Shown: positions 11,826-21,491 of the stretch, in pieces
Layout: each line of letters opens with the position of its first letter
Position numbering within the stretch: position 1 is the stretch's first letter
Assembly: GCA_030041225.1 (NCBI GenBank)
Contig: JASHOG010000096.1
Span: 1 to 37,335, forward strand
Origin: Vulcanimicrobiota bacterium
GTDB lineage: Bacteria; Vulcanimicrobiota; Vulcanimicrobiia; Vulcanimicrobiales; Vulcanimicrobiaceae
Reading direction: 5' to 3'
Length of the DNA: 37,335 nt
Notes under the pieces: generated by a model
The model's input: the letters and a program-made list of their open reading frames with translations, nothing else
Told to the model about the DNA's origin: nothing
The model's database searches: none
Translations under genes and position numbers: made by a program

Positions 11826-12414
11826 GGAGCTGCGGGAGATCGTCCTCGCGAGCGGCTCCCCGCGGCGCTTGGAGCTCTTGCGAAGCCTCGGCTTCGCTGT
11901 GGAAGTCGCCCGCAGCGGATACGATGAGCCCAACGACGAGAGGCTTGCGCCTCCAGAGCTCGCCGCTCACCACGCCCGCGCAAAACTCGACCTCGTTCGC
12001 CCGCGTTTTCCCGCGGCCGCGGTCGTCGCAGCCGATACCGTCGTCGATCTCGACGGGCACTCTCTCGGGAAGCCGAACGACGCTCGTGAAGCCGCCATCA
12101 TGCTTCGGTCGCTCTCTGGGCGCTCGCACCGCGTGCACTCCGCCTACGCGCTCGCCCTTCCGGGTGCGCAGGCGCCGCTCGAGCGCCTCTCGACGACCCT
12201 CGTCCGCTTCCACCACCTAAGCGAGGACGAGATCGCGGCCTACGTCGCGACCGGCGAGCCGATGGACAAAGCCGGGGCGTACGGCATACAGGGCCGAGCG
12301 ACTGCTCTCGTCGAGACGATCGACGGAGACTATTGTACCGTCGTCGGCTTCCCCCTCGGCGATTTCATCCGCACGTTGCAGGACTTGGGATTTAGGCTTC
12401 CGAGCGCGAAGTGA
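11794..12414 (+). CDS. maf: Maf family nucleoside-triphosphate pyrophosphatase
   Basis: Maf proteins hydrolyse dTTP/UTP or modified nucleotides to monophosphates and are linked to cell division control. The sequence shows VLASGSPRRLELL near the N-terminus, AADTVVDLDGHSLGKP in the middle, LSGRSHRVHSA, and DKAGAYGIQGRATALVETIDGDYCTVVGFPL. This is the complete motif set, with the catalytic Asp in AADTVV. The first in-frame ATG near the conserved region is at 11794, inside the lipoprotein gene, giving 206 aa; no closer ATG/GTG/TTG exists before VLASGS. It precedes mreC by 13 bp, and maf-mreBCD linkage is common. I see which subfamily it resembles only loosely, so the substrate is open. Confidence 0.92.
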   Translation: MSKPAGASTGKELREIVLASGSPRRLELLRSLGFAVEVARSGYDEPNDERLAPPELAAHHARAKLDLVRPRFPAAAVVAADTVVDLDGHSLGKPNDAREAAIMLRSLSGRSHRVHSAYALALPGAQAPLERLSTTLVRFHHLSEDEIAAYVATGEPMDKAGAYGIQGRATALVETIDGDYCTVVGFPLGDFIRTLQDLGFRLPSAK

Positions 12415-12427
12415 ATCACTCGCCCCC

Positions 12428-13228
12428 GTGTACCAAGACGAACGCAAACTTCTCGCGCTGATCGGCGTCATCGTCGTCGCCGGAGTTCTCCTATTCGTCC
12501 AAATAGGAGCCGCTCGCAGCGGGCGTCCGGGGCCGATCATATGGGCGGGGTCAACGGCAGTCGCCTTCGTCGAGCAAGTCGCCTCGGCATTCATCGATGG
12601 CGTGCGCGGCGCAGGTGGGACCGTGCTTTCGGTTCCGCAGATGAGCCGTCAGAACGCGTCGTTGCGCGCGCAAAACGAGCAGCTTCAGGCGGAGAACGCC
12701 CGCCTCCAGGAAGAGATTGCGGCGGAGGCGTCGACTGCGGCGATCGACCCGGTGGTACGGGACGATCCCGACGGCATCGAGGCGCGCGTCATAGGCTTCC
12801 CGCCGGAGAACGAGTCGCGCACCGTGACGATTGACCGCGGATCCCGGGCGGGTGTGAAAGCGGACGACGGCGTCATCGCACCGGAGGGTGTCGTAGGGCG
12901 TATAGCAGAGGTCGGCCCATTCTCGAGCACCGTGTTGCTCATCACCGACTATACCAGCCGAATTCCCGCGATCGTTCGGCGCGGACGCTGGTGGGGCATC
13001 GCGCAGGGAAATCTCACGAGCGTTCGGTTGCAGTACGTCTCACAAGATGCTACCCTGCGCGTCGGCGACGTCGTCGTGACGGGAAATGGCCGCTCGTTCG
13101 ACTCCGGAGTGCCGATCGGTACGATCGTCGAGATCGACCACAACGACGCCGCGCTCTACCAGACCGCCGTCCTTCGCCCGGCCGTAGAGCTCGGTGCACT
13201 CGATCGCGTTGTCGTACTCTCGAAGTAA
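12428..13228 (+). CDS. mreC: rod shape-determining protein MreC
   Basis: MreC is a periplasmic scaffold of the elongasome. The 266-aa protein has one N-terminal membrane segment (about 7-28) and a short coiled coil (about 72-100, SRQNASLRAQNEQLQAEN). The beta domains follow, with ARVIGFPPENESRTVTIDRGSRAGVKADDGVIAPEGVVG, then TDYTSRIPAIV and GDVVVTGNGRSFDSGVPIGTI. These are standard MreC motifs. The start is GTG. It sits in maf-mreC-mreD-mrdA; mreB is not in the window. Confidence 0.94.
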   Translation: MYQDERKLLALIGVIVVAGVLLFVQIGAARSGRPGPIIWAGSTAVAFVEQVASAFIDGVRGAGGTVLSVPQMSRQNASLRAQNEQLQAENARLQEEIAAEASTAAIDPVVRDDPDGIEARVIGFPPENESRTVTIDRGSRAGVKADDGVIAPEGVVGRIAEVGPFSSTVLLITDYTSRIPAIVRRGRWWGIAQGNLTSVRLQYVSQDATLRVGDVVVTGNGRSFDSGVPIGTIVEIDHNDAALYQTAVLRPAVELGALDRVVVLSK

Positions 13229-13748
13229 AGCGCCGCCGCGCTACACCGGCCCCGCCGTTCGTGTGGCTGCGGCGTGGCTCATCGTGGCGCTCGTCGTTCA
13301 AGCGACGCTCATGCATTATGCCGTCGTGCGGGGTGTCGAGCCAAGTCTCGTGCTCGTGGCGGTCGTCTGGTACGCGATGCGCGCAGATGCGTGGCGAGCG
13401 ACGCTCTATGGCTTTTTTGCCGGCCTCGGAGAGGATCTGATCGCTTTCGACGCCGGCGGCGCGTGGACGTTCTCGACGGCGATCGCTGCGTTCCTCGCCT
13501 CGCTGCCGACGCGGCGCTTTTTCGAAGATTCTATACCGCTCCTCATGCTCGTCACGGCCTGCGCGACGCTCGTGCGCGCGGTCATCTTCTGGAGCGTCTT
13601 GACGATTGAGGGCTACCCGCCCGGGCTTGGAACGCTCCACTTTCATGAGGCGCTCCTGCAAGCGGTGCTCAATGCCGCGCTCGCGGGTGCCGTCATGCTC
13701 GTCGCGCGGCGCTGGGAACGGCGCGGCATCTCTCGGCGGCGGCGATGA
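13194..13748 (+). CDS. mreD: rod shape-determining protein MreD
   Basis: This small membrane protein sits between mreC and the PBP2 gene, where mreD is expected. It is strongly hydrophobic with about four to five membrane segments (AAWLIVALVVQATLM, LVLVAVVWYAM, GFFAGLGEDL, IPLLMLVTACATLV, VLNAALAGAVMLV). The GFFAGLGEDLIAFDAGG loop resembles the conserved GxxxGLxxDxxxxxxxG of MreD. Sequence conservation in the family is low, so context carries much weight. The listed GTG start overlaps mreC by 35 bp; another GTG at 13263 would sit just before the first membrane segment. The 3' end overlaps the PBP2 gene by 4 bp. Confidence 0.85.
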   Translation: MHSIALSYSRSKAPPRYTGPAVRVAAAWLIVALVVQATLMHYAVVRGVEPSLVLVAVVWYAMRADAWRATLYGFFAGLGEDLIAFDAGGAWTFSTAIAAFLASLPTRRFFEDSIPLLMLVTACATLVRAVIFWSVLTIEGYPPGLGTLHFHEALLQAVLNAALAGAVMLVARRWERRGISRRRR

Positions 13749-15601
13749 CGCCGCTTCGCCCCGCGCGTAGGCGCATCTCGTGGGAACGACCGCCGCTTCG
13801 AATCATCGTCTTTGCGATCGTGATGCTCGTCGCGCTCATGGTGCTCGCGGTACGTCTGGCGATCATCCAACTTCTGGATGGTGCGACGTATCGCGCGCAG
13901 GCACAAGAGAACCAGATTCGCCTCATCCGCGTTGCGGCGCCACGCGGACTCATGTACGATCGGAACGGCATCGTCATCGCACGTAGCCGCCCCTCGTTCG
14001 TCGTCGCGCTCATTCCATCGGAGATCGAGAGCCTTGCGCACGAGATGCACGTTCTGTCACAAACCATCGGTGTGCCGGAGCGCTCCCTCATGGAGCGGCT
14101 CTTCCACCACCACGGCATCGACTACACGAGCTTCTCGCAGATCGTCGCGAACGAACCGTACGGCCCGATCATCCTCGCGGTCGATCTCCCGGTTCCCACG
14201 GTTGCACGGCTCTCGGAGATTCTCACCGACCTTCCCGGCATCGACGTCGAGGTGCAGCCTATTCGTGACTACCCATACGACGAGATCGGATCGCACATCA
14301 TCGGCTACGTCGGCGAAATCAGTGAAACGGAGTATGCGCGCCTGCGCAGGTTCGGCTATTCGCCGAACGACGTGATTGGGAAAGATGGGCTTGAAGCGGA
14401 GTACGACACGTATCTGCGCGGGCAGCCGGGCGGCGAGCAGATCGAAGTCGATGCCTCGGGGCAGGTCGTGCGCGGAGCGGAGTTTCCGCAGAAACCCGCC
14501 ATCCCAGGTGATGCACTCGTCACGACGATCGACTGGCGGTTGCAGCGCATCGCCGAGTACGCCCTCGCGGCCGGCATCAGGAGTTGGGGGCACGGGCAGC
14601 CGCTCTCGGGCGCAGTCGTTGCCGAGGATCCGTACACCGGTGGAATCCTCGCACTCGCAAGTTATCCCAACTTCGATCCGAATGCGTTTGCGCGAGAAGA
14701 CTCGCAGCAGGTCGAGGCCTATCTCACGTCGCCGCTCGAGCCGCTCTTCGATCGCGCAATCGCCGCAGCAACACCGACCGGCTCGACGTTCAAGATGGTT
14801 ACCGGGTCTGCCGCGCTCACCGAGGGCGTCGTCAAGGTGGACCAAGTCGTCTATGACAGCGGCGAATGGGACTGCGGCGGCTACATCGCGCGCGACATCG
14901 CGGCAGGAGGACTCGGCGACACGACATTCATTCCTGCGCTCGCCGCTTCGAGCGACGGTTATTTCTACCGGCTCTCCTGGTATCTGGGCAACGAACGCCT
15001 GCGGAAGTGGGCGCTGCTCTTCGGTCTGGATCAGCTCACCGGCGTCGATCTTCCCGGCGAAGGACAGGGAAACTGGCCAACCGACGCATGGATGGAACGC
15101 ACGTACAACCTGCCGCTCGAACCGAGCGATGCGTGCTTCCTCGGCATCGGACAAGGCGCGATGCAAGCGACACCGCTCCAAATGGCAAACGTTGCCTCCG
15201 CGGTTATCAACGGCGGCACGCTCTATAGCCCGCACGTCGTCAGCCAGATCGTTACACCAACCGGCGCCCTCGTCCGGCGCATGCCCATTCGGATTCTGCG
15301 CACGATTCCGGCCTCGCCGCAGGCGCTCGCAGCGGTTCGGGCCGGAATGGCCCGCGTCACGGATCCGGGCGGAACAGCGTACGGCCTCGCGATAGCAGGG
15401 CTGCCGTTCTCCGGGAAGACCGGTACTGTTGAGACCGAAGGCGGGCACGGTCCGAACACGACGTGGTTCGTCTGCTGGGTGCCCACCGATCATCCGAAGT
15501 TCGCGATGGCGGTGTTCGTCGACCGTAGCGGCGGTTACGGCGCCAGCGTCGCGGCGCCGATCGCACGCGCGATCCTTGTGCAGTACTTTAGAAAGAAGTA
15601 G
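13745..15601 (+). CDS. mrdA: penicillin-binding protein 2, peptidoglycan DD-transpeptidase
   Basis: PBP2 cross-links peptidoglycan in side-wall growth together with RodA and MreCD. The 618-aa protein has a single membrane anchor (about 19-43) and a dimerisation domain beginning VAAPRGLMYDRNG. The transpeptidase domain has SxxK at Ser347-Lys350 (TGSTFK), SxD at 402-404 (SSDGYFY, the SxD form usual in PBP2) and KTG at 558-560 (SGKTGTVE). Length is normal. It overlaps mreD by 4 bp and ends the rightward group; rodA is not next to it. Its last 14 bp overlap the 3' end of the opposing gene at 15588. Confidence 0.95.
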   Translation: MTPLRPARRRISWERPPLRIIVFAIVMLVALMVLAVRLAIIQLLDGATYRAQAQENQIRLIRVAAPRGLMYDRNGIVIARSRPSFVVALIPSEIESLAHEMHVLSQTIGVPERSLMERLFHHHGIDYTSFSQIVANEPYGPIILAVDLPVPTVARLSEILTDLPGIDVEVQPIRDYPYDEIGSHIIGYVGEISETEYARLRRFGYSPNDVIGKDGLEAEYDTYLRGQPGGEQIEVDASGQVVRGAEFPQKPAIPGDALVTTIDWRLQRIAEYALAAGIRSWGHGQPLSGAVVAEDPYTGGILALASYPNFDPNAFAREDSQQVEAYLTSPLEPLFDRAIAAATPTGSTFKMVTGSAALTEGVVKVDQVVYDSGEWDCGGYIARDIAAGGLGDTTFIPALAASSDGYFYRLSWYLGNERLRKWALLFGLDQLTGVDLPGEGQGNWPTDAWMERTYNLPLEPSDACFLGIGQGAMQATPLQMANVASAVINGGTLYSPHVVSQIVTPTGALVRRMPIRILRTIPASPQALAAVRAGMARVTDPGGTAYGLAIAGLPFSGKTGTVETEGGHGPNTTWFVCWVPTDHPKFAMAVFVDRSGGYGASVAAPIARAILVQYFRKK

Positions 15602-15917
15602 GCTCGTCGGTTCGCACCGCGATCAGCGTCTGCCAGATCGCTTCGCGCACCCGAGCATCGGGCTCGTCGGCGAGCGCAGCCTCGAGCACCGCTGTGGCCC
15701 ACGTACTCGCGACGACGCCGAGCCGCGCGACGATTGCACGACGCTCTTGCGCGTCGAGTGCTGCGGTGTCGGCGAGAATCGTCGCGGTCCAGCTCGCGCT
15801 TGGCGGGTAGAGCGCGATCGCAGACGCTGCAGCCTCCCGCGCAGCGCGATGGCGCTCGGCCGCGACGTAGACTGCCGCCGCAAGAAGCAGTATGACGAGA
15901 ACGCCGATGAGCGGCAC
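15588..15917 (-). CDS. small membrane-anchored HEAT-like protein (B')
   Basis: I do not recognise a named family. The likely product is about 109 aa: an N-terminal membrane segment (PLIGVLVILLLAAAVYVAA), a basic flank (ERHRAAR) suggesting a cytoplasmic C-terminus, and a helical HEAT-repeat-like body. It aligns with the protein at 16557 over nearly 58 residues. Shared points are the Trp-Thr pair, the acidic stretch ALDAQERRAIVARL against GLSDCARCDLVFAV, and VLEAALADEPDARVREA against LLEYALQDPSEGVALAA. The GTG start at 15917 is one base after the stop of the preceding gene; the frame is open further up (to 16049), but that part has no membrane-like or other protein features. The 3' end overlaps the PBP2 gene tail to tail by 14 bp. 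Confidence 0.65.
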   Translation of the reverse strand: MPLIGVLVILLLAAAVYVAAERHRAAREAAASAIALYPPSASWTATILADTAALDAQERRAIVARLGVVASTWATAVLEAALADEPDARVREAIWQTLIAVRTDEPTSF

Positions 15918-15918
15918 G

Positions 15919-16560
15919 TTATGCTGCCAGAACGGCCGCAGCTCTAAGCGCGTCGACCGCGCTACGCAGTTGCTCGTGCAAGGCGGGCTCCGCATCTTCG
16001 ACGAGCGCTTGGAGAAATATTTCCGCAGACTGCTCGGCGAGCTCGGCAAGGCGACGCGCGAGGATCGTGCGGTAGCCGGCGAGGACGGTGCGCTCGACTC
16101 CGCGACAACGGATCGTCGTGCCGAGCAGCTCCGTCAAGAGCATCCACGGAACCGCCGAGCCGAGCGGTGCTCGCTCGACCTCGCCGAGAAGCGCACTCAT
16201 GCGGTCCTTCGCCAGGTCTCCGATGAGGCACAGCTCCGGCGGCGCGGCGTCGTCGTTCCGAGTTTCCGTCTCGACGAGTGCTCGAGCAACGTCGATCAGG
16301 GACGTGCGCATCTTCTCGCTCTCCATCTGCGCCGCTCGTACCGTGCTCGGAGCGCGCACGAAGAGTCGCTCGCAATGCTCACGTAGCGGCTCGCCGAAGC
16401 GCTCGAGCGAATCCGACAGCTCCGGCGACTCGATGACCAGATTGGGCAGCAGCAGCGCGATCGCGATCGCGTGTGTGAGGAGTCCGTTGCCGGCGCCGTG
16501 CTCGAGGACGCGAACGCGGCGCAAGAACGAGCGCGCAGAGAGCGCGAGTGCGGCTCTCAC
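15919..16560 (-). CDS. free-standing copy of the C-terminal helical domain of the 17014-20208 protein (A')
   Basis: This 213-aa protein has no known family that I can name and no clear signal peptide. Most of it aligns with the last 190 residues of the large protein two genes upstream. Examples are RVLEHGAGNGLLTHAIAIALLLPN against RFLEEARFSGLVTHLFALRAFLPD. APLGSAVPWMLLTELL aligns with APLATALSWSALARLL, and YRTILARRLAELAEQSAEIFLQAL with YRGLLIDRLDTLCEAESAEFIEAL. It therefore looks like a duplicated domain living as a separate protein. The GTG start overlaps the stop of the gene before it by 4 bp, and the next gene starts one base after its own stop, so all four genes are probably one coupled operon. 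Confidence 0.75.
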   Translation of the reverse strand: MRAALALSARSFLRRVRVLEHGAGNGLLTHAIAIALLLPNLVIESPELSDSLERFGEPLREHCERLFVRAPSTVRAAQMESEKMRTSLIDVARALVETETRNDDAAPPELCLIGDLAKDRMSALLGEVERAPLGSAVPWMLLTELLGTTIRCRGVERTVLAGYRTILARRLAELAEQSAEIFLQALVEDAEPALHEQLRSAVDALRAAAVLAA

Positions 16561-17003
16561 CGCACGACGAAGACGGCTTCTTGCTTCTTCGAAGGAACGG
16601 TGAGCAGCGAAAGCGTCGAGACGATGCGCTCGGCACGCTCGCCGGGATGCTGCGCGAGAAAACGCTCGACGATACCGCTGCGCCCGGAACCCGCGAGCGC
16701 GTGCGCGGCGGCGAGTGCTACGCCTTCGCTTGGATCCTGCAGTGCGTATTCGAGCAGGTGCGTCGAGCGATCGTCATCGAGCGCAGCGACCGCGAAAACG
16801 AGGTCGCAGCGCGCGCAGTCCGAGAGCCCGGCAAACTCTTGTCCGGCTTCGTGAGTCCAGGTCGTCGTCGCTTGCAACGGTGCCACCTCGACTTGGTCGA
16901 GCAGCGTCGGCTCCGTGATCGGCGGGCGCGGCGCGATCACGGCGTAGATACCCAGAGCGATGCCCGCAATGAAGAGAATGGCGATAGCAATGGTAATCAA
17001 CAT
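16557..17003 (-). CDS. small membrane-anchored HEAT-like protein (B)
   Basis: The 148-aa product begins with a hydrophobic anchor (LITIAIAILFIAGIALGIYAVIA) and a proline-rich linker (PRPPITEPT), then an alpha-helical body with HEAT-like spacing: LLEYALQDPSEGVALAAAHALAGSG followed by another helix pair. A CxxC (SDCARCD) is present here but not in its paralogue at 15588. The ATG at 17003 has TGAGG eight bases upstream, so this start is well supported; the longer frame to 17075 would overlap the previous gene without adding a sensible N-terminus. Ten bases separate it from the large gene upstream and it overlaps the next gene by 4 bp. Function unknown; an inner-membrane partner for the adjacent large protein is a reasonable inference. 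Confidence 0.75.
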   Translation of the reverse strand: MLITIAIAILFIAGIALGIYAVIAPRPPITEPTLLDQVEVAPLQATTTWTHEAGQEFAGLSDCARCDLVFAVAALDDDRSTHLLEYALQDPSEGVALAAAHALAGSGRSGIVERFLAQHPGERAERIVSTLSLLTVPSKKQEAVFVVR

Positions 17004-17013
17004 GGTGAGAGCC

Positions 17014-20000
17014 TCAGGACACCGCTGCTCGTAGTGAAGTGAGCCAGACGTCGAGTGCGCCGTCCAGAACCACATCCTGACGGCGTTGCAGCGCCTCGAT
17101 GAACTCCGCCGACTCGGCTTCGCAGAGCGTATCGAGACGATCGATCAAGAGCCCGCGGTAATGCTCGATTTGCGGCGTGCCGTCCGGCAAGAGCCGCGCG
17201 AGCGCAGACCACGAAAGGGCCGTCGCGAGCGGCGCTCCACGGAGGCGTTCGCCGATCTCGCGCAAGGCTGCCGGATCGTAGGCGCCCCGTAGCGTCAGTG
17301 AAGCACCGGGCGGATCCGCCGGCGCGCCGTGCGCCGCCGCTGCTTCGTGAACCACATGCTCGATCGAGGCTCGCAACGAGGGAGTCTCGATATCGCGCGG
17401 TGCGAGGGCGTAGCTGGGTAGACGCAGCTTGATGAAGAGCCGGTCGAGCTCTTCGCGCAGCGCCGCGCTTACCGGCGCTACGGTGACGCGCCCATCGCCG
17501 ACGGCGTCGGGCAGGAAGGCGCGTAACGCAAAGAGGTGCGTCACAAGGCCGCTGAAGCGTGCCTCTTCTAAGAATCGCAGCGTTCGTCCAAGCCATTCAT
17601 TGCTGAACCCGAGCACCGTTCCGACGTGGGACGCGTCGACGACGCGCCCATTCGAGTAGGTGCCCTCTCCATTGTGGAAACTGCCACTGCTCGGCCCCTC
17701 CCCGCCGGAGCCCGCGATTGCCGGAGTCAGCTCCGCGAGGCGCTCGTCTCGCGCCGCCGCGTCAGGCGTCGGGCCGACGAGTCCTTCGAGACCGAACTGC
17801 AAACCCGGAATAGCGTTGGCGAAGACCGGCGCCGCCCGCACCTTGAGTTCGTCCGATGCGAGCTCGTCGTATCGGTCGCCATCGTACGTGATGTGCGCAA
17901 CGCGCACGATCGCCTCACCGGCGGGAAGCTGATTGTGCACGACGTCGCGCCAGCGAATCGTCGCTTCCACACCTGGGTCGAAGTCATTGAGCACGATACC
18001 GCGCTCGTTCGCGAACGGCCCGACCGCACCGACGTCACGAATCGGAACGTCGTTGACGCTCGTCGAGTTCGGTACGTAAATGAGTGACGTGAGCTGCGCG
18101 ACGCGTATCTGCACTTGTCGCGCGGGACCGTCGCCGCCGTTGCGCAGGTGCAGCGCCCACTCGATCGTCTCGCCGAGATCCGCGAAGTCGTTGGGGTTGC
18201 TTCTGAAGCTTCCCACGGAAAAATCCGGTGTTGCGGTCGTCACGATGGTGAGGCGCTCGAGCGGCACGGGCAGCATCGAGTCGGCCGTCAAGACGGCGTC
18301 TACCGTGAGCGGATGCTCTTTCGGTACGCTGCGCAGGAGGCGCAGCCCCAGGCGCGCCTGAGCTTGTGCACCGGGCGCAATCTCGCCGAAGAGGATCGAA
18401 GAACGTTCGCGCGTTGCGCCCTCGACGCTCTCGAATCGCGCCTCGGGCGATACCAATAGGCGGAGGCGCACGTTGCGCGCCGCGTCGCTCCCGATGTTCA
18501 AGACGTTCACGAGCACCTCGGCAAGCTGATTCGGACGCAAGAGCGTGCCGCTCGCGAGCTCGAGGTGCGAGCTCGCCGGAGCAAAAGCCGGATGCGAGTC
18601 GATACGCCAGCTCGCCTCGCCGAGCTGCGTCTCGCCGAGCTCACGAGTCGTCAAGGAGGCACCGATCACGATGTCACTGCGATCCGCGTACGGCGTGCGC
18701 ACGTGCGCTTGCAACGCGATGCGTCGCGTAGCGTACGGCTCGATCGAACCGAGCTCGGCGACGCCGTTCTCCATAGGGATGCCGACGCCGCGTTCGCTCA
18801 ATCGCACGTCCTCGAGCGCAGGGTCGAGACGCAGCTGCAGTGTAGCGTCCTGCACCGGTGCGCTACCGTCGTTTGCGACTGCTATCGTTGCCTCAACCTC
18901 TTGACCCGGACGCACGACGCCCTCACCCGAACGCCGTATCGTATTGCGGCGGCGCACGAGCGCGGGCTCCGAGCGTACGACCACGCTGCGCTCGAAGCGC
19001 CGGTTGCCTTCACCCTGCGACGGTTGCCAGCCCAGACTCGCAGCTACCGGCAGCGTCGCGCCGTCGGGCAGCGGTGCAACTGCAATTGCCTCGCAACGAA
19101 GCTCGACGCGCTCGCCGCCCTCGACTCTGCCGAGATCGAAGACGACATGATCGCCGCGCCGCTCGCGACTCGGACGTCCATCAGTGCGCGAGGCCCCTCG
19201 AACGTAGAGCAGCGACTCCGGAAGATCGACTGAAAGCCACGTTGATTCCGCGGCAGCCGTGCCGGAGTTACATGCGACGAAGGTGAGCACGACACGCTCG
19301 CCCGGATGCACTTGCGTCGCCGGCTCGACCGTAAACGTCGTACGGTCATCGGCGAAATCCGGCGCCGCGTGCACGACGAGCACGGTGGGATCGAGTGAGA
19401 AGGCTGCCGTCTCCTGCGATGCAACCTGCGCATGAGCAATGACGCGAGTGCCGTCGGGTAACGGCGAATCGATGCGTACGCGATAGACGAGCATCGCGCT
19501 TGCACTTGCTGAGAGCGAAGAGGCGACGATCGGCGCGTAGACGCGGTCGTAACCACAACCGAGATCGCGCTCGATCTCGCGTCCGTTTACCCTCGCAGAG
19601 CCGGGAACGTAGCTCGTGTGCTCAGGAATCGGCGCAACCACGACGACGTCGTGCGCGCTCGACTCTCCCGCGTTGTGTATACGAACGGTGATCTCGGCCT
19701 CCGCACCCGGCGCGGGCTCGCGACGCGTCTCGATCGTGATCCCGGTCAACGCGTTGTGCAGCTGCGGGCGGCTGCGCGCGATGAGACGGACGACATTCGA
19801 GCCGACCGGTTGGACCTCGAAGGATGCGACGGCCGCCTGAAGCTCGATCGTCGTGCCGTTTTCAATGGCGCCGACGACGCTGTAGGCGATTTCGAGCCGC
19901 CGCTCTTCACTGGGTGCGACGTCGCCGATGTGCGCACCGTTTCTCGCGAGCAACGGCGAGTTCCCGAGCTCGTCGTCGAGATCGGCGCCGTCGAGGCGTC

Positions 20001-20208
20001 CGCTCCCGACGAGATAGACGAGCCCCTCAGGAAGATTGAAGCGCACCCGGACGCCGGTTGCGGCAGCTCCGCCGTTGTTACGGAACGTAAAGCTTGCACG
20101 CACGGTCACTCCAGGTTCTAACTCGCGCTCGGGAGAAACCACGAGCGTTCGGAGCCCTTCGGGCAACGTCGGCGCGCCCGGCGCGAAAACTTCCGACAGG
20201 GTACGCAT
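17014..20208 (-). CDS. large protein with six DUF11-like beta repeats and a helical C-terminal domain (A)
   Basis: This 1064-aa protein has about six repeats of 115-130 residues (roughly 22-147, 156-282, 290-413, 421-540, 547-660, 662-797). They follow the DUF11/conserved-repeat pattern: a PG turn, NxGxxxAxxV, LPexlxYVxGSxxxDG, then a G-x-x-x-xGE-x-R segment and PLPDGT. Clear copies are NNGGAAATGVRVRFNLPEG, NAGESSAHDVVVVAPIPEH and NSGTAAAESTWLSVDLPES. A Gly/Ser-rich linker (about 815-865) leads to a helical domain (about 867-1064) that recurs as the separate protein at 15919. DUF11 repeats are usually on exported surface proteins, yet no signal peptide, membrane segment or sorting motif is visible. 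The ATG at 20208 has no good ribosome site, but the conserved region starts soon after. Function unknown. Confidence 0.85.
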   Translation of the reverse strand: MRTLSEVFAPGAPTLPEGLRTLVVSPERELEPGVTVRASFTFRNNGGAAATGVRVRFNLPEGLVYLVGSGRLDGADLDDELGNSPLLARNGAHIGDVAPSEERRLEIAYSVVGAIENGTTIELQAAVASFEVQPVGSNVVRLIARSRPQLHNALTGITIETRREPAPGAEAEITVRIHNAGESSAHDVVVVAPIPEHTSYVPGSARVNGREIERDLGCGYDRVYAPIVASSLSASASAMLVYRVRIDSPLPDGTRVIAHAQVASQETAAFSLDPTVLVVHAAPDFADDRTTFTVEPATQVHPGERVVLTFVACNSGTAAAESTWLSVDLPESLLYVRGASRTDGRPSRERRGDHVVFDLGRVEGGERVELRCEAIAVAPLPDGATLPVAASLGWQPSQGEGNRRFERSVVVRSEPALVRRRNTIRRSGEGVVRPGQEVEATIAVANDGSAPVQDATLQLRLDPALEDVRLSERGVGIPMENGVAELGSIEPYATRRIALQAHVRTPYADRSDIVIGASLTTRELGETQLGEASWRIDSHPAFAPASSHLELASGTLLRPNQLAEVLVNVLNIGSDAARNVRLRLLVSPEARFESVEGATRERSSILFGEIAPGAQAQARLGLRLLRSVPKEHPLTVDAVLTADSMLPVPLERLTIVTTATPDFSVGSFRSNPNDFADLGETIEWALHLRNGGDGPARQVQIRVAQLTSLIYVPNSTSVNDVPIRDVGAVGPFANERGIVLNDFDPGVEATIRWRDVVHNQLPAGEAIVRVAHITYDGDRYDELASDELKVRAAPVFANAIPGLQFGLEGLVGPTPDAAARDERLAELTPAIAGSGGEGPSSGSFHNGEGTYSNGRVVDASHVGTVLGFSNEWLGRTLRFLEEARFSGLVTHLFALRAFLPDAVGDGRVTVAPVSAALREELDRLFIKLRLPSYALAPRDIETPSLRASIEHVVHEAAAAHGAPADPPGASLTLRGAYDPAALREIGERLRGAPLATALSWSALARLLPDGTPQIEHYRGLLIDRLDTLCEAESAEFIEALQRRQDVVLDGALDVWLTSLRAAVS

Positions 20209-20294: not shown

Positions 20295-21491
20295 ATGCTT
20301 GCCGTGACCCAAGATCGCATCGCCGCCGCCGTCGGACGCTTAGGGGCCGAGAACGCCTTTCAGGTCCTGGCACGCGCCCGGGCTCTAGAAGCCAAGGGGC
20401 GCCGCGTCGTGCACATGGAGATCGGTGAGCCGGATTTCGATACGCCGCAGCACATTAAGGAGGCCGCGGTTGCGGCGCTCTACGCCGGGGAGACACACTA
20501 CCTGCCCTCCGCCGGGCTCGCCGAGCTGCGCAGCGCCGTCGCGGAGTACTCGAGCCGCTTCCGCCGGATCGAGCCGGGGTATTCACCGGAGAACGTCATC
20601 ATTACGCCCGGCGCCAAGCCGGCGATCTGGAACACGCTCTGCGCCCTCCTCAACCCCGGGGACGAGTTCGTCTATTTCGATCCGGCCTATCCCGCCTACG
20701 CGTCCGCAGCCGGCTATCTCCAGGCAAAGGTCACGGCGATTCCACTGCGCGAGGAGCGCAACTGGCGCATGGATCTCGACGAGCTCGAACGCAGCGTCTC
20801 CGAACGTACGAAGCTGCTCGTCATCAACTCACCACACAATCCGACCGGCGGCGTTTTGCAACGAGAGGATCTCGAGCGAATCGCCGAGCTCGCCAAGCGT
20901 TTCGACTTCTTGGTCCTTGCCGACGAGATTTACAGCCGCAACCTCTACCTCGAAGGCGAGTACCTTTCGATCGCCTCGCTGCCCGGCATGCGCGAGCGCA
21001 CGATCATCGTTGACGGCTTCTCGAAAGCCTATGCGATGACGGGCTGGCGCCTTGGCTACGCGATCATGGACGAGAAGCTCGCGAACGTCGTGACGCTCTT
21101 CAACAACAACACCTTCAGCTGCGTTGCCTCGTTCGTGCAGCGCGCCGGAATCGCGGCACTTCACGGACCCGACGAGCCGGTGCGCGCGATGAATGCGACG
21201 TTCCGCGAACGGCGCGATCGTATCGTTGCGGGGCTGAACGCGATCCCGCACCTCTCGTGCACGCTTCCCGAGGGCGCGTTCTACGCGTTCCCCAACGTAA
21301 GCCGCATCACGAGGGACGGGCGCAAGCTCGCGAGCTTCCTTCTCGACGAGGCGGGCGTCGCGTGCACCGCAGGAGCGGCATTCGGAGCAGCGGGCGAGGG
21401 ATATCTGCGCTTCTCGTACGCAGCGTCACTCGAGGACATCGACTGGGCACTCTCCGCAATCGCCGAGGCGCTGCCCGCGTTTCGAGGCTGA
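20295..21491 (+). CDS. PLP-dependent aminotransferase, class I/II (aspartate aminotransferase-like)
   Basis: The 398-aa protein is a fold-type I aminotransferase. Motifs seen are GEPDFDTP (44-51), HYLPSAGLAELR, INSPHNPTGGVL (177-188), LADEIYS (208-214) and the PLP-binding Lys244 in VDGFSKAYAMTGWRLGY. The C-terminal Arg for the substrate carboxylate is in GYLRFSYA. These fit the AspC/AspB-like branch of subgroup Ib/gamma, which acts on aspartate, alanine or aromatic amino acids; the exact substrate cannot be set. The ATG has AAAGGGA eight bases upstream. It is a single gene, divergent from operon A-B-A'-B' and convergent with trpS. Confidence 0.92.
   Translation: MLAVTQDRIAAAVGRLGAENAFQVLARARALEAKGRRVVHMEIGEPDFDTPQHIKEAAVAALYAGETHYLPSAGLAELRSAVAEYSSRFRRIEPGYSPENVIITPGAKPAIWNTLCALLNPGDEFVYFDPAYPAYASAAGYLQAKVTAIPLREERNWRMDLDELERSVSERTKLLVINSPHNPTGGVLQREDLERIAELAKRFDFLVLADEIYSRNLYLEGEYLSIASLPGMRERTIIVDGFSKAYAMTGWRLGYAIMDEKLANVVTLFNNNTFSCVASFVQRAGIAALHGPDEPVRAMNATFRERRDRIVAGLNAIPHLSCTLPEGAFYAFPNVSRITRDGRKLASFLLDEAGVACTAGAAFGAAGEGYLRFSYAASLEDIDWALSAIAEALPAFRG

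Follow-up and report, generated by a model that had tools for sequence, protein, structure and literature searches.

The stretch of DNA analyzed here (the window; 37,335 nucleotides) belongs to a 2.38-Mb draft genome that is 95% complete and that its named close relatives place in Candidatus Eremiobacterota, and it carries an operon of four minus-strand genes. Gene 1 (17014-20208; 1,064 amino acids, ATG start), here referred to as A1, encodes six DUF11/CARDB-type Ig-like repeats, a linker, and a C-terminal domain, here referred to as CT. It is followed by gene 2 (B1; 16557-17003; 148 amino acids, ATG start), with a transmembrane helix at residues 2 to 23, a linker, and a six-helix HEAT-like body. 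Gene 3 (A2'; 15919-16560; 213 amino acids, GTG start) is a second A paralogue cut down to the CT domain, and gene 4 (B2; 15588-15917; 109 amino acids, GTG start) encodes a transmembrane helix and a shorter HEAT-like body and matches the B-family profile. A1 and B1 are separated by 10 bp, B1 and A2' overlap by 4 bp (GTGA), and A2' and B2 are 1 bp apart; the ORF coordinates thus bear out the gene layout and junctions described in an earlier note on this DNA. On one side, the operon is flanked by a divergent aminotransferase gene, aat (20295-21491, plus strand), which is also found beside A1 in order f2 and in many of the f1 genomes. On the other side lies the convergent PBP2 gene (13745-15601, plus strand), downstream of mreC and mreD, into which the 3' end of B2 reaches by 14 bp.

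The earlier note had proposed that the operon arose by duplication of an undescribed two-gene module, gene 3 resembling the C-terminal ~190 residues of gene 1 and gene 4 resembling gene 2, and the homology of both gene pairs was upheld, over the last ~200 residues of gene 1 in the case of gene 3. When the window's own genome was searched by tblastn with gene 1, gene 3 surfaced unprompted (residues 865-1062, 29% identity, E=2.4e-6). A profile built from 21 A1 CT domains only retrieved gene 3 at E=6e-30, while 0 of 1,000 shuffled gene 3 sequences were listed by the same profile up to an E value of 10. In a profile-profile comparison, the alignment of B1 with B2 took in the membrane helix and extended to 97 columns (E=2.4e-7, probability of 93.5%). 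The genes were also found adjacent and not dispersed in related genomes. The paired genes are therefore significantly similar and stay together in relatives, the opposite of the two outcomes, dissimilar pairs and scattered genes, that the note had set against its own proposal.

The Ig-like array of A1 (17809-20208, minus strand) spans about residues 1 to 800 and comprises six repeats of ~130 amino acids; the array was recognized with Pfam and NCBIfam DUF11 models, and the count of six comes from our own repeat alignment, with boundaries placed by eye. A1 matches DUF11 at 4e-25 (88.8 bits against a curated cutoff of 24.6) and CARDB at 2e-10, and gene 3 contains 0 DUF11 repeats. The CT domain of A1 (17020-17640, minus strand; about residues 857 to 1063) is predicted to adopt an alpha/beta fold, with a mean pLDDT of 96.9 and a pTM of 0.92 in the AF2 model. 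A Foldseek search of this model against the PDB gave a best E value of 0.65, with TM-scores of the best matches mostly about 0.2 or less, and the viral folds of BFVD gave no match. The CT profile found nothing under an E value of 0.55 among PDB sequences, CT matched no family in Pfam or NCBIfam, and no Pfam family was common to the CT members. Its N- and C-terminal halves are weakly alike (hhalign E=5.6e-5, probability of 66%). Since the fold is confidently predicted and a solved relative was not detected, a single structure could add a fold. The CT and B profile searches of genomes covered the phylum Eremiobacterota, and one scan of genome contigs with the whole A1 protein returned close relatives alone.

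The AF2 model of B1 (pLDDT of 85.5) consists of a 22-residue helix and six further helices and was assigned by Foldseek to alphaRep/HEAT proteins with probabilities of 0.97 to 0.99. The B-family profile matches alphaRep-based chains at 1e-28, and the window B1 sequence alone falls under the HEAT cutoff in Pfam. Lysine and arginine residues are distributed very unevenly around the membrane helices, with 4 before and 54 after the B1 helix (20 homologues) and 2 before and 30 after the B2 helix (12 homologues), and these positive-inside counts point to an N-out/C-in orientation for both. A1 has no transmembrane helix, and its conserved N terminus (MRTLSEVFAPG..) has no hydrophobic stretch. A hydrophobic N terminus is likewise absent from 20 of the 21 homologues examined, the exception being a transmembrane-anchored protein, L063; outside this protein, the maximal KD19 hydropathy of the first 60 residues of the A homologues examined ranges from 0.36 to 1.45. 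Because A lacks a signal peptide and the B anchor is predicted to be oriented N-out/C-in, the A-B complex is probably cytoplasmic. The inner-membrane location suggested by the earlier note thus stands, with the charge counts and the A N termini pointing to the cytoplasmic face.

Gene order was compared in 60 relatives, and the whole-phylum set comprised 149 genomes. Many genera of the same family encode two tandem full-length A proteins, each of ~1,080 to 1,110 amino acids, in the order A1-B1-A2-B2, and other genera have A1-B1 only. In trees of the CT domain, A1 and A2 form separate clades, the single-copy f2 genes fall outside both, and gene 3 and its congeners constitute one group nested within the full-length A2 clade. 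This topology indicates that the duplication is old and that gene 3 is a reduced A2 that has lost its Ig-like array, as opposed to having been born as a lone domain. The earlier note's description of gene 3 as a domain alone therefore holds for the CT-only protein that it encodes and fails as a statement of the original condition; a recent copy of the gene 1 tail is ruled out by the same trees. In f2 and g9 (L059-L062, L115), the single B is a longer protein. The long f2 B resembles B2 in its N-terminal half (E=6.8e-8) and B1 in its C-terminal half (E=1.8e-8), which suggests that B1 and B2 kept complementary parts after duplication, with the certainty lowered by the fact that these are repeat proteins. 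In one genome (G013), the module has been relocated away from the mre locus, and B1 is also separated from A2 by genes for a Phd-family antitoxin and a putative toxin of PIN-like type (L042:7479-8137). A plasmid-borne origin was discarded, as a tblastn search with CT against 72,556 plasmids gave 0 matches.

CT was detected in 82 and B in 85 of the 149 phylum genomes, nearly all of them in one order, and the pairing of the two is near constant. In 111 of 134 CT matches, B lies within 600 bp downstream, with a median gap of 23 bp; CT genes without a nearby B are mostly at contig ends, belong to ten B1-A2CT fusions, or are accompanied by diverged B genes. True exceptions include G020, which keeps a full-length A2 without B2. 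This agrees with the earlier note's proposal that each CT domain has its own anchored HEAT-like protein. In all 10 genomes of genus g24 (L052, L099-L107), B1 and the CT domain of A2 are joined in a single in-frame ORF, the A2 Ig-like array having been lost there independently of the window's genus. This natural fusion supports contact between A and B, which we infer from the fusion and the pairing together. The exceptional protein L063 (L063:6833-9994, in G035) is an A-array paralogue with an N-terminal, N-out/C-in membrane helix of its own and no detected CT, as if an anchor and CT-B docking could substitute for each other.

Taken together, we consider it moderately probable that the operon encodes two copies of a membrane-tethered cytoplasmic scaffold. 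B would be the inner-membrane anchor, with one N-out/C-in helix and its HEAT-like body in the cytoplasm, and the CT domain of A would dock on this body, thereby tethering A at the cytoplasmic face of the inner membrane. A itself, with some six Ig-like domains in a row, would form a rod that arrays or positions putative client proteins. An ancestral single A-B pair was tandemly duplicated early in the window's family to give A1-B1-A2-B2, and in the window's genus, A2 then lost its rod, so that A2'-B2 retains the putative docking half only and probably tunes or caps the assembly of A1-B1.

A more specific function is suggested by relatives of the module in type IV pilus operons. In five f1 genomes (G010, G021, G024, G089, and G109; L133-L137), a short CT protein is encoded directly after pilQ in the pil operon and is followed by a B-like gene of the transmembrane/HEAT type (which could not be made out in G010 and whose transmembrane part was not called in G089) and then by an extra PilT-like ATPase gene. 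In a sixth genome (G038, contig C76; L138/L139), a full-length A-B pair stands at the end of the pil operon, after secretin (pilQ)-GGDEF-HD, so that homologous pairs occur in such operons in six genomes of two families. Downstream of A-B, the latter operon encodes a 586-amino-acid protein that has no Pfam match and contains a hydrophobic segment close to the N terminus (L138:10843-12603). The homology of the pilus-operon genes is supported by E values of 6e-15 for CT (0.046 for a reversed control) and 2.6e-8 for the B-like protein against the f2 B. A and B might thus be type IV filament accessories at the cytoplasmic base of the pilus, with the window copy serving its own pilus in trans, since the window genome has a pil operon on contig C34. 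That operon, however, contains no A-B, and the window copy sits at the aat/pbp2 locus, location in a pil operon being confined to distant paralogues. The pilus-operon CTs, moreover, form a separate group from those at the aat/mre locus with 99% SH-aLRT support (six labeled rows on one side of the branch, plus the CT of G022). A-B is retained in two drafts, G011 and G110 (each 96% complete), that matched neither T2SSF nor the PilB-type model (TIGR02538), and other module-bearing genomes, G031 and G026 among them, have weak PilB-type matches only. PilM_2 (PF11104) was dropped as a pilus marker, as it matches nearly every genome, probably through cross-matches to FtsA and MreB. On balance, we regard this role of the module as a pilus accessory as unlikely.

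It is also conceivable that genes 3 and 4 are functionless, decaying leftovers. Between the window and its closest relative, dN/dS was 0.03 for the array and 0.11 for the CT domain of A1, 0.07 for B1, 0.29 for A2', and 0.30 for B2, i.e., about two- to ninefold higher for the second pair than for genes 1 and 2; across pairs, A2' ranged from 0.29 to 0.58, the values for more distant pairs being rough due to high dS. The second pair has been lost from G006 and is absent from several genera, and this loss, as well as the retention of A2 without B2 in G020, indicates that it is dispensable. On the other hand, the gene 3 frame is open in 5 of 5 congeners compared (38 to 67% identity to the window gene), the genes are tightly packed, and the dN/dS values are well below 1. 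Genes 3 and 4 thus drift faster together yet are still under purifying selection. Their fast evolution is compatible with a weakening function, and outright decay seems to us quite improbable.

The earlier note took the convergence with the mreCD-PBP2 genes as a clue to an envelope role, and most f1 genomes do have the module converging on pbp2. A second MreB gene is located between maf and mreC in G129 (L115:12805-13893) and also in G012 (L142), and it is missing at the same place in the window's lineage (window positions 12414-12428). Most f1 genomes with A-B beside pbp2 have only one MreB-level match. Membership of the module in the MreCD-PBP2 cell elongation machinery could thus be argued from the position of pbp2 and from the disappearance of the second mre-linked MreB gene in the window's lineage. 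However, the genes are convergent and not cotranscribed, order f2 retains aat-A-B without an adjacent pbp2, and G013, G015, and G035 carry A-B elsewhere. In G129, both the second MreB gene and A-B are present at the locus. Moreover, a 96% complete draft (G028) keeps A-B with maf following B where mreCD-pbp2 would be; this draft has no MreC match, and its best MreB_Mbl match (1e-18) is at the level of DnaK and FtsA, with no MreB-level match. An elongation role is therefore very unlikely, and with f2, G013, and G028 against it, the mre neighborhood was abandoned as a primary clue to function. The retention of A-B without MreB and MreC or without detectable pilus ATPase and platform genes implies that neither machine is an obligate partner, with the proviso that drafts can miss genes.

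DUF11 arrays are usually found in surface proteins, and A could in principle be an exported protein that leaves the cell by an unrecognized route and is held by B on the outer side of the inner membrane. This is highly improbable, and a surface adhesin is disfavored, given the hydropathy scan, in which A lacks the export signal expected of a surface-type DUF11 protein, the strong C-in charge bias of B, and the B1-A2CT fusion, which places CT on the side of B. Anti-phage defense was dismissed, as PADLOC models gave no match at E<=0.01.

The scaffold reading can be extended to a broader, more speculative picture that we offer tentatively, as it may well not hold in full: a previously unknown internal scaffold of Eremiobacterota, tethered to the inner membrane from the cytoplasm, in which Ig rods carry a new-fold CT docked on a HEAT anchor, shared by pilus bases and a separate membrane site, with the reduced pair as a regulator. 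To our knowledge, membrane-held cytoplasmic Ig-array scaffolds are not a recognized system in bacteria, and a full-text literature search found no paper on the A-B module. The novelty thus lies in the protein pair and its fold, and the function that we suggest is a proposal. The history of the module, which was duplicated, lost the rod on two separate occasions, and had its anchor fused to the docking domain, amounts to a natural experiment that shows which of the parts cooperate. A first concrete pointer to what the module does comes from its relatives in pilus operons, and it could be tested in Vulcanimicrobium alpinus, which belongs to the phylum, has been cultured, and bears type IV pili (PMC9758169).

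Several known systems share features with the module. The MreCD-PBP2 genes are its neighbors in most f1 genomes but are convergent, separable, and not homologous to it. DUF11/CARDB repeat proteins (PF01345, PF07705, and TIGR01451) resemble residues ~1 to 800 of A1, which differs from them in lacking a signal peptide, in its undescribed CT cap, and in having an anchored HEAT protein as its partner. B has the fold of HEAT-repeat and alphaRep proteins (PF13646) but is distinguished by a single N-terminal membrane helix, a body of only about six helices, and its CT partner. The likeness to pil operons (pilB-T-C-A-D-M-N-O-P-Q) lies in the homologous CT-B pairs found in the operon of six relatives; the window pair, in contrast, is outside the pil operon, such modules persist without pilus genes, and neither A nor B matched a named Pil protein in Pfam or NCBIfam. 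PilM-PilN, like A-B, combines a cytoplasmic protein with a single-pass membrane holder; no sequence relation between the two was found, and the predicted topology of B, with its body in the cytoplasm, is the opposite.
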